Of a DNA stretch of 64,000 nt, positions 26,750-38,048 are shown one piece after another (the first letter of the stretch is position 1; each line of letters opens with the position of its first letter). Where the stretch lies: positions 1,641,551-1,705,550 of the forward strand of contig NZ_CP013126.1 in NCBI RefSeq assembly GCF_001441165.1, given 5' to 3'. Below the pieces are notes generated by a model that was not told the origin of the DNA, did not search any database, and worked only from the letters and a program-made list of their open reading frames with translations. This DNA comes from Acidipropionibacterium acidipropionici (lineage in GTDB: Bacteria > Actinomycetota > Actinomycetes > Propionibacteriales > Propionibacteriaceae). The translations under genes were made by a program, and so were the position numbers.

Positions 26750-27279
26750 GGTGATTCCTCCCTTTTCACACGGTCCCTGATGATTCGTATCATTCATTGT
26801 GTTCTTGTACGCCTCGGATTGCAGGATCCAGTGACTTCGGATCCCATATAGCACTGACGCTACTGCGGGCGCACGAGGACTCAACCTTATCGGGATATTT
26901 TCCAAAACGTCCTTGGATGGCGTCATGGCGCGGCGCGAAGCGCATGATGTCTGCTGCTCCACGCGAAGCAGTGCATGCGCCGCAACCCATTCAACGCGAT
27001 GATGCGACAGCGCGTCACACCCCAAGGGGTGAGTCCTCGGCTTCCATCCCTGCGGGTGCTGCTCACGACAACTGCGAAGGCGTTCCACGGGGCCACTCAC
27101 CAAAATATGTTCAGCAGCTCTGTGGCCTTGACCAACAGGAGTGCCAAGGTAAAGTGAGGCAAATTCCGAGTCCGGTGTTGATGGCCCCGGGGGTGGGCAC
27201 AGGACCGGCGTGGCATTCAGTGCAGTGAAACGCCGAGGGATGACATGACAAGCCGACATGACACGCGTGGGGAGAACCG
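26750..27279. other. Divergent intergenic region, 530 bases
   Basis: This separates the SDR/reductase operon from the P450. It is less G+C-rich near 26770-26900. No frame carries a domain. It contains the palindrome at 27018 and short inverted repeats around 26930-26990, so it is probably regulatory for both directions. Confidence 0.5.
27018..27031. promoter_or_regulatory. Candidate operator CACCCCAAGGGGTG
   Basis: A palindrome with arms CACCCC and GGGGTG around AA, lying between the divergent SDR and P450 genes. It resembles the palindromes at 19697, 29869 and 38959. Confidence 0.4.
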
Positions 27280-28509
27280 ATGACGCCTCGACCGTTCGAC
27301 AGCACGATCCCACTTCTTCATGAGGGATATCCCTTCGTGTCCTCGCGATGCGACGAGCTGGGCACTGACCTGTTCACCACCAGGATCGCTCTGCAGCGCG
27401 CGACCATCATGCGAGGAGCAGCAGCCGCGGAGCTGTTCTACTCCAGCGGTCACTTCACCCGCCGTGGTGCTGTGCCTCTGACGGTCCAGCACCTTCTGCA
27501 GGACGAGGGATCGGTGCAGGGTCTGGAAGGGACGGCTCATCGGCATCGCAAGCAGGCGTTCCTGGACGTGATGGCTCCCGACACGATGCCCGCGCTCGGG
27601 GAGCTGTTCGAGGAGGAGTGGCGCCAGGCGATGAGCCGCCACGAGGTCGACCGCAGGATCGTCCTGGCCGACGTCGCCGAGGAGGTCCTGGCAGGGACGG
27701 CCTGCCGTTGGTGCGGCATACCGCTGGAGAAGGCGGATCTGCCGCGTCTCACCAGGGAGCTGAGTCTCATGGTCCGGTGGGCCGGCAGCCAGGGGCCCGG
27801 CAACTGGTACGCCCAGTGGCGCCGGCGCGGCACCGAGCAGTGGGCGGCCGGCCTCGTGGAGCAGGTGAGGGACGGCCGGCTCGATGCGGGCCCGGCCACG
27901 ACGCTGCGCGTCTTCGCCGAACTCACCGATGAGAACGGTGAGCGGCTGCCGGCGCGGATCGCCGCGGTGGAGATCCTCAACGTCCTGCGGCCCATGGTGG
28001 CGATCGCCCGGTTCATCACGTTCGCCGCGGTGGCCCTTGCCGAGCACCCTCGGTGGCGCGAGCGCTTCGCCTCGGGCGACGTCGAGGGCCTCGAGCCCTT
28101 CGCCCAGGAGGTCCGCCGCTACTACCCCTTCTTCCCGGTGGTGCCCGGGCGCAGCGTGGACGCCTTCACCTGGCAGGGTCACCGGTTCGGCCAGGGCGAG
28201 TGGGTCATCCTCGACCTCTACGGCACCTGCCACGACCCCCGGCTGTGGCACGATCCCCACGCATTCGTCCCCGAGCGCTTCGAGGGCTGGAGCTGGGACG
28301 ATGACCCGTATTCGATGATCGCTCAGGGGGCCGGGGAGCATGCCCGGACACATCGGTGCCCGGGCGAGTGGAGCACGGTCGAAGTGCTGCGTCGCGCTCT
28401 GGTGCTGCTGGCCACCGATGACCGGACCCTTCCGGCGCAGGATCTCACAGTGCCCCTGAACAGGTTCCCGACAATGCCGCGCAGCGGGGTGATTCTGGAA
28501 AAGGGCTGA
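27280..28509 (+). CDS. CYP152-type cytochrome P450 (fatty acid peroxygenase)
   Basis: This 409-residue P450 has the haem Cys in H-R-C-P-G-E-W near residue 366. The I-helix lacks the usual acid-alcohol pair and instead has L-R-P-M-V-A-I-A-R near 237, the Arg-Pro signature of H2O2-using CYP152 enzymes (P450-BSbeta, SPalpha, OleT). Such enzymes use peroxide directly to hydroxylate or decarboxylate fatty acids. At the position that decides the outcome in that family (His in OleT, Gln in hydroxylases) the sequence reads V-Q-G-L-E-G, so I predict hydroxylation. No redox partner is needed. It fits a peroxide-rich stress setting. Confidence 0.9.
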   Translation: MTPRPFDSTIPLLHEGYPFVSSRCDELGTDLFTTRIALQRATIMRGAAAAELFYSSGHFTRRGAVPLTVQHLLQDEGSVQGLEGTAHRHRKQAFLDVMAPDTMPALGELFEEEWRQAMSRHEVDRRIVLADVAEEVLAGTACRWCGIPLEKADLPRLTRELSLMVRWAGSQGPGNWYAQWRRRGTEQWAAGLVEQVRDGRLDAGPATTLRVFAELTDENGERLPARIAAVEILNVLRPMVAIARFITFAAVALAEHPRWRERFASGDVEGLEPFAQEVRRYYPFFPVVPGRSVDAFTWQGHRFGQGEWVILDLYGTCHDPRLWHDPHAFVPERFEGWSWDDDPYSMIAQGAGEHARTHRCPGEWSTVEVLRRALVLLATDDRTLPAQDLTVPLNRFPTMPRSGVILEKG

Positions 28510-28569: not shown

Positions 28570-29583
28570 ATGGCCGCAGAATCGGACACCGACACTTCGG
28601 ACCACCATGAGCCCTTGCTGGAGGAGGGACCGAAGTCCAGGACCGTCGAGGTCGACGGCCACCGGCTCAAGCTGACTCATCTGGACAAGGTGATGTACCC
28701 GCAGACCGGGACCACCAAGCGCGACGTCATCAATTTCTACTGGCAGGTGGCTCCGCGGCTCATCGAGCACGCCCACGACAGACCGGTCACCCGGAAGCGC
28801 TGGGTGGACGGCGTCGGCACCTCGGACGAGCCGGGGGAGTCCTTCTTCCAGAAGAATGCCGGCCGGGACACGCCGGACTGGGTGCCCCGGGTCAGCATCG
28901 AATACGTGCGCAAGACCAATGAGCATCCGCTCGTCAACGAGCCGGCTGTGCTCGTCTGGCTCGGGCAGACCGCGACCCTGGAGATCCACACCCCGCAGTG
29001 GCGCGCCTACAGCACGGGCCGGCGTCACCGGCCGGACCGGCTGGTCCTGGATCTGGATCCTGGCGAGGGGGTCGAACTGACCGGCTGTGCGCAGGTCGCG
29101 CTCCAGGCCCGTGAGGTGCTCGCCGACATTGGGCTGGACGCAGTCCCGGTCACCAGCGGCTCCAAGGGCATCCACATCTATGCTCCGCTTGACGGGTCGT
29201 GGACCTGGAAGAAGGCCAGCGAGTCCGCGCACCGGCTCGCCCAGTCGCTGGAGAAGGAGCACGCCGACCAGGTGACCACCAGCATGGACCGGGCGGAGCG
29301 GGCCGGGAAGGTCTTCATCGACTGGAGCCAGAACAACACGAACAAGACGACGGTGGCGCCGTGGTCATTTCGCGGCCGACTGCGCCCCACGGTGGCGGTG
29401 CCCCGGCTCTGGGAGGAGATCGAGGATTCGCAGCTTCGCCAGTTGGATCACAGCGAGGCACTGGAGCGCCTGAACGAGCCTGATCCGCTCAGTGGGGCGA
29501 TCGGCCGGCTGAAGCGCGGCTGCGAGCCGGTGCCGGCGGGGGCGTCGTCCGCCGACCAGCTGAACACGATCACCGTCGTGTAG
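28570..29583 (+). CDS. LigD-type polymerase/primase domain protein
   Basis: This 337-residue stand-alone LigD polymerase domain (archaeo-eukaryotic primase fold) belongs to non-homologous end joining. It has the catalytic acidic pair in L-V-L-D-L-D-P-G near residue 160, T-S-G-S-K-G-I-H-I-Y near 195 and Q-N-N-T-N-K-T-T-V-A-P-W-S-F-R near 258-270. There is no ligase or nuclease domain and no Ku gene nearby, so partners must be elsewhere. The last dozen residues overlap, antisense, a decayed response-regulator fragment, and the tail may have been altered by that junction. A GAGGAGG ribosome-binding site precedes the ATG. Confidence 0.92.
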   Translation: MAAESDTDTSDHHEPLLEEGPKSRTVEVDGHRLKLTHLDKVMYPQTGTTKRDVINFYWQVAPRLIEHAHDRPVTRKRWVDGVGTSDEPGESFFQKNAGRDTPDWVPRVSIEYVRKTNEHPLVNEPAVLVWLGQTATLEIHTPQWRAYSTGRRHRPDRLVLDLDPGEGVELTGCAQVALQAREVLADIGLDAVPVTSGSKGIHIYAPLDGSWTWKKASESAHRLAQSLEKEHADQVTTSMDRAERAGKVFIDWSQNNTNKTTVAPWSFRGRLRPTVAVPRLWEEIEDSQLRQLDHSEALERLNEPDPLSGAIGRLKRGCEPVPAGASSADQLNTITVV

Positions 29584-29774
29584 TGGGAGTCCGATGCGAG
29601 TTCGGCGAGCTGTTCGGCCCCGCTGCGATGCGCATGCGGGTCGAACAGGGCCAGATCGGCCCCCGTCGCCGGCGGTGCATTGCCAGCGGCCGCGAAGACA
29701 TGGATGAGGTGATTCATGCTCAACATCTCGACAACTCCATGGACCACCACGGGGGTCTCATCGATGAGGGCTAC
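29553..29774 (-). pseudogene. Receiver-domain remnant of an orphan LuxR-type regulator
   Basis: Read leftwards from 29774, the frame gives V-A-L-I-D-E-T-P-V-V-V-H-G-V then E-M-L-S, ending with V-I-V-F-S-W-S. It aligns with the intact regulator at 33682-34350 (V-S-V-V-N-D-Y-P-V-V-V-H-G-V, N-M-L-S, V-L-F-D, V-L-I-Y-S). A stop lies directly before it and no start codon is present; the C-terminal half with the helix-turn-helix is missing. Its 3' end overlaps the last 31 bases of the LigD-like gene on the other strand. Confidence 0.65.
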
Positions 29775-29868
29775 TTAAATTTCTGGCACGTCTCTCATTA
29801 AGAAAGTATTGCGCTATAAGAGCGTCATTCAAGCGCACTCTCGCAGCTGCCGATAAATCACGAGAGTA

Positions 29869-29884
29869 CACCCCTTGGGGGGTG
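29869..29884. promoter_or_regulatory. Candidate operator CACCCC-N-GGGGTG
   Basis: CACCCCTTGGGGGGTG lies about 95 bases upstream of the lipoprotein/CDF operon. It is the third of four similar palindromes in the stress island. The surrounding 29775-29860 stretch is A/T-rich and probably holds the promoter. Confidence 0.4.
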
Positions 29885-29979
29885 GTGCGGTCCTCGGTCC
29901 GTAAATAGCGTGGTGAGAGTTGTTGATCGGTCACGCCGCACCGACATCCGGGCGACTACTCCGAGCAGGGGAGGGATCC

Positions 29980-30483
29980 ATGGCACGGGCGCATCGGCGG
30001 ACCACGCCGAGGAGGACTCGGACCGCCGTCGGACTCGTGCTGGCCCTTCTGCTCTGCGTGACGACGGGCTGCTCCTGGCCGCGGGACACCAGTGGCAGCC
30101 TCGATGCCGCAAGTGGGGGGACGCTGCGAGTCGGCGTCTCGGTCAACCCGCCCTTCACCACCATGGAGAATGGTGAGGTCGGTGGCAGCGAGTCGACACT
30201 CGTCAGGGGCTATGCCAGGAGCATCGGCGCCGACGTGCGGTGGCGGATCGGGGCCGAGAGCGTACTCGCCGAGGAGATGCGCAATGGTGATCTCGACGTC
30301 GTCATCGGAGGACTTACCTCCACCTCGCCGTGGACCGACAAGATGGCCCTCACCCGCCCCTACCGGACGGTCACAGCTCCTGATGGGAGTCCGGTGAAGA
30401 TGGTCATGGGAGCGCCGCTGGGGGAGAACGCGCTGCTGGTCTCTCTGGAGACGTACTTGAGCGAGCACGGAGCCCAGGGATGA
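29980..30483 (+). CDS. Short lipoprotein with family 3 solute-binding fold
   Basis: This 167-residue protein has a lipoprotein signal (basic start, hydrophobic stretch, lipobox V-T-T-G-C with Cys near residue 28). It then looks like the first lobe of an amino-acid-type periplasmic binding protein: L-R-V-G-V-S-V-N-P-P-F near 48 and D-L-D-V-V-I-G-G-L-T near 105. Complete family 3 proteins are 230-280 residues, so most of the second lobe is absent. The start at 29980 has GGGAGGG upstream. Its stop overlaps the start of the CDF transporter (ATGA), so it may be a ligand- or metal-sensing accessory of that transporter (inference). Confidence 0.75.
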   Translation: MARAHRRTTPRRTRTAVGLVLALLLCVTTGCSWPRDTSGSLDAASGGTLRVGVSVNPPFTTMENGEVGGSESTLVRGYARSIGADVRWRIGAESVLAEEMRNGDLDVVIGGLTSTSPWTDKMALTRPYRTVTAPDGSPVKMVMGAPLGENALLVSLETYLSEHGAQG

Positions 30484-33681: not shown

Positions 33682-34350
33682 TCAGCCGAGGGCCTGCGGG
33701 CTATGCGAGTCGTCAACCTCCACCGCGGCCGTGGTGGGCACCATGCCATGAGTGATGCCCCAGAGCACGGCCTGGCTGCGCCTCGTCACCCCGATCTTGC
33801 GGTAGGCGGACCGGATGTAGGACTTCACCGAGTTGATGCTGAGGAAGCAGGTGGCAGCGATGTCCTGGTTCGTGGTGCCCTGGGTGATGAGTGCGATCAT
33901 CTCGGCCTCCCGCTCCGAGAGGCCGGCCAGGCGTCCCGGCCAGTCCCCGTTGGTGACGTCGCAGGTACCGGTGGCCAGCTTCGTGACGGACTCGCCGCGG
34001 TGGACCTGGACGATGGCGTCGGCCAGGTCATCGGAATCGACGGTCTTCGAGACATAGCCGGCGACCCCCATACCGAAGAACGAGGTGAGTTGCCGGGGAT
34101 CGACGGTGTCGCTGTAGATGAGGACTCTCCCGTACCGGGGGTCCGCCACCATGGTCGCCAGGGCATCCTCCCGGTCGATCTTGGCGAAGGCGTCGAAGAG
34201 CACCACGTCCACCGGATTGTCAGGAGTGGTCGATGTGGCAACCTCGATCACCTCGAAGCGCGGATCCGAGCTGAGCATGTTGTGGACGCCGTGCACGACG
34301 ACGGGATAGTCGTTGACAACGCTGACCGTGATGGCCCTGGTACCCGTCAT
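33682..34350 (-). CDS. Orphan LuxR/NarL-type response regulator
   Basis: The 222-residue protein has an N-terminal receiver (residues 1-120), with the expected phospho-acceptor in V-V-L-F-D near 56. The C-terminal LuxR helix-turn-helix (about 150-210) has L-S-E-R-E-A-E-M-I-A-L-I-T-Q-G, then I-A-A-T-C-F-L-S-I-N-S-V-K-S-Y-I-R. The usual paired acidic residues after beta-1 are replaced by N-D, and no kinase gene adjoins, so control may be atypical. It is a good candidate for the master regulator of the stress island; a related receiver fragment survives at 29553. Start at 34350; a longer frame lacks a ribosome-binding site. Confidence 0.85.
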   Translation of the reverse strand: MTGTRAITVSVVNDYPVVVHGVHNMLSSDPRFEVIEVATSTTPDNPVDVVLFDAFAKIDREDALATMVADPRYGRVLIYSDTVDPRQLTSFFGMGVAGYVSKTVDSDDLADAIVQVHRGESVTKLATGTCDVTNGDWPGRLAGLSEREAEMIALITQGTTNQDIAATCFLSINSVKSYIRSAYRKIGVTRRSQAVLWGITHGMVPTTAAVEVDDSHSPQALG

Positions 34351-34511
34351 GGCGGACCGACTCCTTTGATTGCACAATTGGCCGAATTGGCTGTGACAAG
34401 AGTAGCTCATACTTACAATTCTCACGAAGTGACAGATGTTGCTCTCGTGGCGTCACAAATAGAAACAAGCGACCGCTCAGAGATGGACAGCTTCAGGTTG
34501 ATGGAGGAGAG

Positions 34512-36440: not shown

Positions 36441-38048
36441 GGCTTGTCTAGAGTCCGAATCCGTCAAGGTCGAGGAGCACTCCCAAGGTGAAGGCTACCG
36501 GGTCGTATCCGCGTGTTCATGTCGATGCCGCGCCCGTGGCCGCAGCGGGTCAGGCCGGTGGGGTGCTGCTGGTCGAGACGATCCGCGCCTCCGGGTTGGA
36601 CCGGGAACTGAGCAGGGCCCTGGCCCGGTGGGCCACACCGTTGACCGTCCATGACCCGGGCAAGATCCTGTGCGATCTGGCCCTGTCCCTGGCTGTGGGC
36701 GGTGACTGTCTGTCCGACCTGGCCGAGATCCGCGCCGAACCCGGGGTCTATGGCCCGGTGGCCTCCGATCCCACGGTCTCACGGCTGATCGGGCTGCTGG
36801 GCGCCGATGCCGATGCCGCGGAGAAGGCCATCTCGAGAGCCCGGAAGACGGCCCGGGCCCGGGTGTGGGCTCTGGGCGGTGATCACGCGCCGGATGCGGG
36901 GATCAGCCCGGCGGATCCGTTGGTCATCGATGTGGATGCGACCCTGGTGACCGCCCACAGCGAGAAGGAGCAGGCCGCGCCCACGTTCAAGAAGGGGTAC
37001 GGCCATCATCCGTTGTGCGCGTTCATCGACCACGGCGCCCAGGGATCCGGGGAGTGTGCGGTGATCATGCTGCGCCCCGGGAATGCCGGATCGAATACGG
37101 CCGCCGACCACACCACAGTGATCCGGGCCGCCCTGGACCAGGCCGGAGTGGGCGGGCGGCCCGGCAGGCGGGTCCTGATCCGCATCGACGGCGCCGGATC
37201 GACCCACCAGACTCTCGCCGAACTGGTCCGCCGGCGGGTCTCCTACTCAGTCGGGTTCACCCTGCCCGCCGAGACTCCCGAGCTGTACGCCATGATCCCC
37301 GAGTCGGTGTGGACACCGGCCTACAACAGCAACGGCGAGGTCCGTGACGGCGCTGATGTGGCCGAGTTCACCGGGCTGCTGGACCTGGACGGATGGCCGG
37401 CCGGGATGCGGGTCATCGTGCGGCGGGAACGACCTCATCCCGGCGCCCAGTTGCGCTTCGATGATGTGGACGGATACCGGTTGACCGCCTTCGCCACGAA
37501 CACGAAGACAGGTCAGTTGGCCGATCTGGAGGTTCGGCATCGCCGCCGGGCCCGCTGCGAGGACCGGATTCGCAATGCGAAGGACACCGGGCTGGTCAAC
37601 CTCCCGCTCCACGGGTTCGGGGCCAACCGGATCTGGTGCCAGATCGTCGCCCTGGCCTGTGATCTGCTCGCCTGGATGGGACTCCTGGCCCACCCCCAGG
37701 CCCAGGCCCGGCGGTGGGAGCCCAAGAAGCTGCGCCATCGCCTGTTCGCCATCCCCGCCACCCTCGCCCGGAGCGGCCGGCGCGTCATCCTGCACGTCTC
37801 GGATCGCCAACCATGGGTCGACACCGTGGTCGCCGCAGTCGGCGTGCTGCGGGGCCTGCCCGCCCCCGCGGGATAGCCCCCGGTATGCACCTTGACCGCC
37901 CACCATCTGAAAGAACCCCACGGCCCGGACAGCCCGACCCCCGCAGCGACATGCGGCGAACCGTCGCACCCGCCTGCCAGAATCAATGCTCAGTTCGACG
38001 ACACAGCCGCCGAACCCCCACCCAGCAGCCACCCATGAAAAATCGAGG
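36366..38048. mobile_element. IS1380-family insertion sequence with CCAG target duplication
   Basis: The 1683-base element has imperfect inverted ends. CCTCGGCGTTTCATCGGTGA at 36366 matches the complement of the right end at 38048 (CCTCG, TTTCAT, GGTG shared in register). It is flanked by the 4-base direct repeat CCAG at 36362-36365 and 38049-38052. Removing the element and one CCAG rejoins the nhaA frame exactly. Confidence 0.95.
36488..37876 (+). CDS. IS1380-family transposase
   Basis: The 462-residue DDE transposase carries the family landmarks D-P-G-K-I-L-C-D-L-A near residue 56, catalytic D-V-D-A-T-L-V-T-A-H-S-E-K-E near 145, F-K-K-G-Y-G-H-H-P-L near 165, and R-I-D-G-A-G-S near 235. The C-terminal motif R-R-R-A-R-C-E-D-R-I-R-N-A-K-D-T-G holds the final acidic residue. 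It is uninterrupted and of normal length, consistent with a recent insertion. Confidence 0.95.
   Translation: MKATGSYPRVHVDAAPVAAAGQAGGVLLVETIRASGLDRELSRALARWATPLTVHDPGKILCDLALSLAVGGDCLSDLAEIRAEPGVYGPVASDPTVSRLIGLLGADADAAEKAISRARKTARARVWALGGDHAPDAGISPADPLVIDVDATLVTAHSEKEQAAPTFKKGYGHHPLCAFIDHGAQGSGECAVIMLRPGNAGSNTAADHTTVIRAALDQAGVGGRPGRRVLIRIDGAGSTHQTLAELVRRRVSYSVGFTLPAETPELYAMIPESVWTPAYNSNGEVRDGADVAEFTGLLDLDGWPAGMRVIVRRERPHPGAQLRFDDVDGYRLTAFATNTKTGQLADLEVRHRRRARCEDRIRNAKDTGLVNLPLHGFGANRIWCQIVALACDLLAWMGLLAHPQAQARRWEPKKLRHRLFAIPATLARSGRRVILHVSDRQPWVDTVVAAVGVLRGLPAPAG

Follow-up and report, generated by a model that had tools for sequence, protein, structure and literature searches.

Orphan response regulators of the NarL/FixJ type in Propionibacteriales, bacterial pseudogenes produced by a nonsense codon and truncation, and proteins consisting of a LigD polymerase domain alone (PolDom / Prim-PolC type; PMC5663958) are the systems that lie closest to the locus considered here. 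The locus is a short minus-strand stretch in a window of 64,000 nucleotides (the whole stretch of DNA that was analysed) from Acidipropionibacterium acidipropionici. With the orphan regulators of the family represented by the window's intact gene at 33682 it shares the N-terminal half of the receiver, the phospho-acceptor Asp and the spacing of the start; it differs from them by a stop at codon 8 and by the missing later receiver and LuxR-type helix-turn-helix (HTH). Both kinds of lesion that characterize the pseudogenes are present; a difference is that the broken end is common to the lengthened 3' end of the neighbour on the opposite strand. That neighbour is likewise a lone LigD_Prim-Pol domain, distinguished from the stand-alone type by a 20-residue tail absent in its Acidipropionibacterium thoenii orthologue. 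We regard the stretch as very probably a pseudogene, corresponding to codons 1-86 of an orphan NarL-type response regulator from the 33682 family. The partly accessible literature that we searched yielded no account of the locus, which we do not equate with its absence from print.

Homology and kinship of the regulator remnant

The initial annotation had aligned the frame at 29553-29774 (minus strand) with the receiver domain encoded at 33682, and this alignment holds: the pairwise comparison gives 25/72 identical residues (35%, E 1e-12), and a search of the organism's own genome with the 33682 regulator recovers the site at E 1.8e-8, the match containing a single TAA. A family profile from which the window's own copies were excluded gives the frame 53.6 bits (E 9.4e-16); the highest score among 20,560 shuffled frames is 6.3 bits. 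The profile comprises 53 rows from related genomes. Collapsing repeated copies of one regulator left 55 rows, from which L119_7626 (HTH-only) and L129 (a family locus wrongly cut by our script) were dropped; the C12 regulator of A. thoenii is represented by the near-identical one of G004. The match spans 29541-29774, equivalent to positions 15-94 of the 223-position profile, and homology ends at 29541, so that the later receiver and the LuxR-type HTH are absent. Since the profile matches only the remnant and 33682 among 1028 window frames of at least 30 aa, the missing DNA-binding half is not to be found at another place in the window. Pfam assigns no family to the 74-aa frame, Response_reg falling short of it, and the remnant is therefore revealed only by direct comparison and the family profile. 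On the strength of these sequence comparisons, the remnant is real and belongs to the NarL-type family of the intact gene.

That intact gene (33682..34425, minus strand) encodes a GerE HTH and a weakly matching receiver, with a likely ATG start inside the listed frame (MTGTRAI...). Regulators of its family were matched at E 2.1e-28 or better in 29 of 97 genomes searched within the taxonomic family, 11 of the 29 having two among the matches listed. With the remnant as query, matches were obtained in 32/198 family genomes at E 0.01 and in 61/391 order genomes at E 0.001, the own genome included in both counts. The top match by E-value outside the own genome (G289) is 39% identical over 76 residues and one order-genome row reaches 42% over 55 residues, no member being closer than about 40%. 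No intact close orthologue of the remnant was found in the 198 family or the 391 order genomes, and a pattern scan of genome contigs for such an orthologue matched 214 stretches and confirmed none. Other arrangements of the family were also seen. In G072 (L046 / L122) two family regulators stand in tandem, about 100 bases apart. A. thoenii (L119:7623-7928) and G004 (L120:6099-6428) carry, near an intact regulator, a gene for an HTH-only LuxR-type protein of 101 aa, 64% identical to the 33682 HTH; upstream of it in A. thoenii no receiver remnant was found, the best scores being negative.

Is the remnant a true duplicate of 33682 that arose within the island, a sister regulator that died and diverged fast once constraint was lost? 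We consider this possible, although the lesser prospect. The two genes belong to one family and share one neighbourhood, and 11 of the 29 matched genomes carry two family regulators. The distances point the other way. In the same columns the remnant is 33% identical to 33682, compared with 73% for the G001 orthologue from the same genus; 34 of 61 other rows exceed the remnant, which is no closer to 33682 than to the regulators of other genera. It retains 7/10 family-wide conserved positions and 9/22 of those specific to the 33682 clade. In the free tree the remnant is placed elsewhere than with 33682, with weak support. AU tests nonetheless reject neither a grouping with the genus clade (p 0.65) nor one confined to 33682 (p 0.52); trees constrained to these groupings have the higher scores. 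With the backbone fixed, a direct sister relationship with 33682 comes out as borderline (p-AU 0.049, rank 37/117), while attachment to the stem of the 33682 and G001 pair is permitted (p 0.30). The free, constrained and fixed-backbone trees were all built without one outgroup row (from L007). Neither G001 nor A. thoenii has a second regulator at the site. The suggestion that the island once held two paralogous regulators thus survives in part: a dead second member of the 33682 family is present, while its ancestral duplication within the island is not borne out by the identities or the clade-specific positions. A recent duplication of 33682 finds no support in 33% identity, even though the tree tests do not reject the grouping. 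Taken together, identity, tree tests and conserved positions suggest an old paralogue or an incomer that has decayed, rather than a recent copy.

Start codon, lesions and state of decay

The frame had been thought to lack a start. Read further upstream, it shows an ATG at 29798 that six codons separate from a TAA at codon 8 (29775..29777, read on the minus strand as 29777-29775, and seen in both the own-genome search and the frame itself), and then the frame at 29553-29774; the earlier reading had begun just past the TAA. The putative pseudogene accordingly extends over 29541..29798 (minus strand), 86 codons from the ATG to the end of homology, and begins MRDVPEI*VALIDETPVVVHG... with the profile match following. 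From the ATG to the conserved Pro there are 16 codons, a spacing that 33682 (MTGTRAITVSVVNDYP) and the G001 and G004 regulators share and that varies among family members of other genera. The genus spacing indicates that the start is present and that the frame was stopped early; the TAA was read in one assembly of one strain.

A functional NarL-type regulator has an uninterrupted frame and a LuxR-type DNA-binding domain, and the remnant has neither, the frame being broken at codon 8. Significant homology combined with disabling lesions is what marks a pseudogene in the 33682 family, and this combination was found here. Decay appears incomplete, given a coding-like composition (GC by codon position.69/.43/.78, against.61/.46/.89 in the 33682 gene) and the retention of 7 of the 10 positions conserved throughout the family; among those kept is the phospho-acceptor Asp, invariant in 53/53 family rows.

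Could the remnant still be in use, as a 100-aa receiver-like protein started at GTG 29750 or as a transcript antisense to the 3' end of the LigD-like gene? The open frame at 29448-29750 and the retained Asp would suit the former, but a protein begun at the GTG would lack the receiver's first acidic residues, and the later receiver is gone together with the HTH. At 29500-30050 a search for a sigma-70-like promoter or a terminator found neither, although such a search says little in this organism. We judge continued use very improbable. A chance pattern opposite the LigD-like gene, as the shortness of the frame and its want of a Pfam family might suggest, is practically ruled out by the independent profile score set against the shuffled control, and most of the frame lies beyond that gene.

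The junction, the LigD-like neighbour and the locus in relatives

The neighbour at 28570..29583 (plus strand; 337 codons and TAG) matches PF21686 (LigD_Prim-Pol) at residues 49-303 of 337, with no ligase family listed by Pfam, and is thus a stand-alone polymerase domain. Its nearest relative, in A. thoenii DSM 20276 (G002), is 87% identical. The 317 shared codons differ at 22, 23 and 71 sites by codon position, and this excess at the third position suggests that the body of the gene is constrained. The A. thoenii orthologue ends at a TGA after 317 residues, where the window has TGC and continues to 337. The additional 20 residues are encoded at 29521..29583 (plus strand), partly opposite the remnant, under which the final 14 codons (stop included) lie. 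Past the TGC/TGA position the similarity between the window and A. thoenii soon fades, the blast similarity ending at 29526, and the single-domain LigD relatives L019, L022 and L024 terminate in other tails. The remnant's homology begins at 29541, with the last firm match at about 29553, which places the junction at approximately 29527..29553. The initial annotation's view that the edge of the remnant, then put at 29553, overlaps the last codons of the LigD-like gene is upheld, with the coding sequence ending at 29583 and homology reaching 29541; the comparison of tails that it proposed likewise shows a tail altered at the junction. A 15-nt inverted repeat (29541-29555 / 29994-30008, 93% complementary) has one arm at this junction and may be due to chance.

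The relatives differ in what occupies this position. The G001 island reads NAD reductase, SDR, KGG-type gene, solute-binding protein, cation efflux, catalase, regulator and NhaA, and its interval between SDR and solute-binding protein holds no LigD, P450 or regulator remnant; in A. thoenii SDR is followed by LigD and then by an acetyltransferase-like frame. SDR, NAD reductase, KGG and acetyltransferase are names given from the sequences; the remaining ones are Pfam assignments of the window's genes. The P450 gene that precedes LigD in the window (27280-28509) has its G001 relative beyond NhaA (L118:13420-14646), and this different place shows that the island has undergone rearrangement. An intact regulator at the position of the remnant, for which it had been proposed to search, is present neither in G001, where the remnant as query listed the 33682 orthologue alone, nor in A. 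thoenii, nor at the LigD end of the 80 LigD loci scanned (kept out of 573 confirmed relatives). The family profile gave two candidate matches in these 80 loci (0.80 Mb), neither at the LigD end: one of 91.8 bits in L218, about 2.5 kb before the match to the locus, and one to the HTH part only in L207, about 4 kb after it. A search of the window for the KGG-type gene of G001 produced nothing beyond weak matches of low complexity (24% identity and E 0.001 for the best), and no plasmid matched 28400-30500. Near-identical copies of a transposase-like gene at 36488-37876 occur elsewhere in the own genome, and G002 and G004 have fragments of it at contig ends.

The intergenic regions of the island contain a further recurrent element. 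A CACCCC..GGGGTG palindrome is conserved in divergent intergenic regions of this stress island, and its copy between the remnant and the solute-binding-protein gene, CACCCCTTGGGGGGTG at 29869..29884, is a close variant of CACCCYWWRGGGTG. Of five genomes from the genus, three (the organism's own, G001 and G003) contain the latter once each, a control pattern being absent from all five; it lies at 27018-27031 in the window, between SDR and P450, and upstream of the solute-binding-protein gene in G001 (L118:4355). In A. thoenii a variant (L119:3503) is located between the KGG-type gene and that for the solute-binding protein. When 2 mismatches at most are allowed, 6 matches are present in the window where 1.15 would be expected; the copy at 27018 enters this count on both strands. 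The palindrome may be a candidate operator of the island, possibly for the 33682 regulator.

Origin of the remnant and of the lengthened tail

What could have produced this arrangement? We propose that the lost regulator, either an old paralogue of 33682 or an arrival with the P450-LigD block, acquired the two lesions visible today, the stop at codon 8 and the loss of everything past the middle of the receiver. A deletion or rearrangement would have joined the truncated gene tail-to-tail with the LigD-like gene's 3' end. That gene would have lost its stop, the direction of the change (TGA to TGC) resting on one close orthologue, and its frame would thereby have grown by 20 residues, partly on the opposite strand of the remnant. 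An old paralogue or incomer truncated by rearrangement fits the evidence best. The remnant would yield no working regulator, and the 20-residue tail is presumably expressed. The C terminus of the LigD-like protein is probably recent. It is a long shot that the polymerase has thereby gained a working C-terminal tail, the last residues of which were born opposite a dead regulator gene.

The immediate outcome is a correction of the annotation, in which the stretch becomes a dead regulator whose start codon is present and whose frame stops early. The loss of a stop codon into an antisense pseudogene would illustrate on a small scale how protein tails originate, and on present evidence it carries no wider consequence. 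We see the locus as ordinary gene decay that left an ordinary pseudogene, of mild interest for its side effect on the tail of its neighbour.
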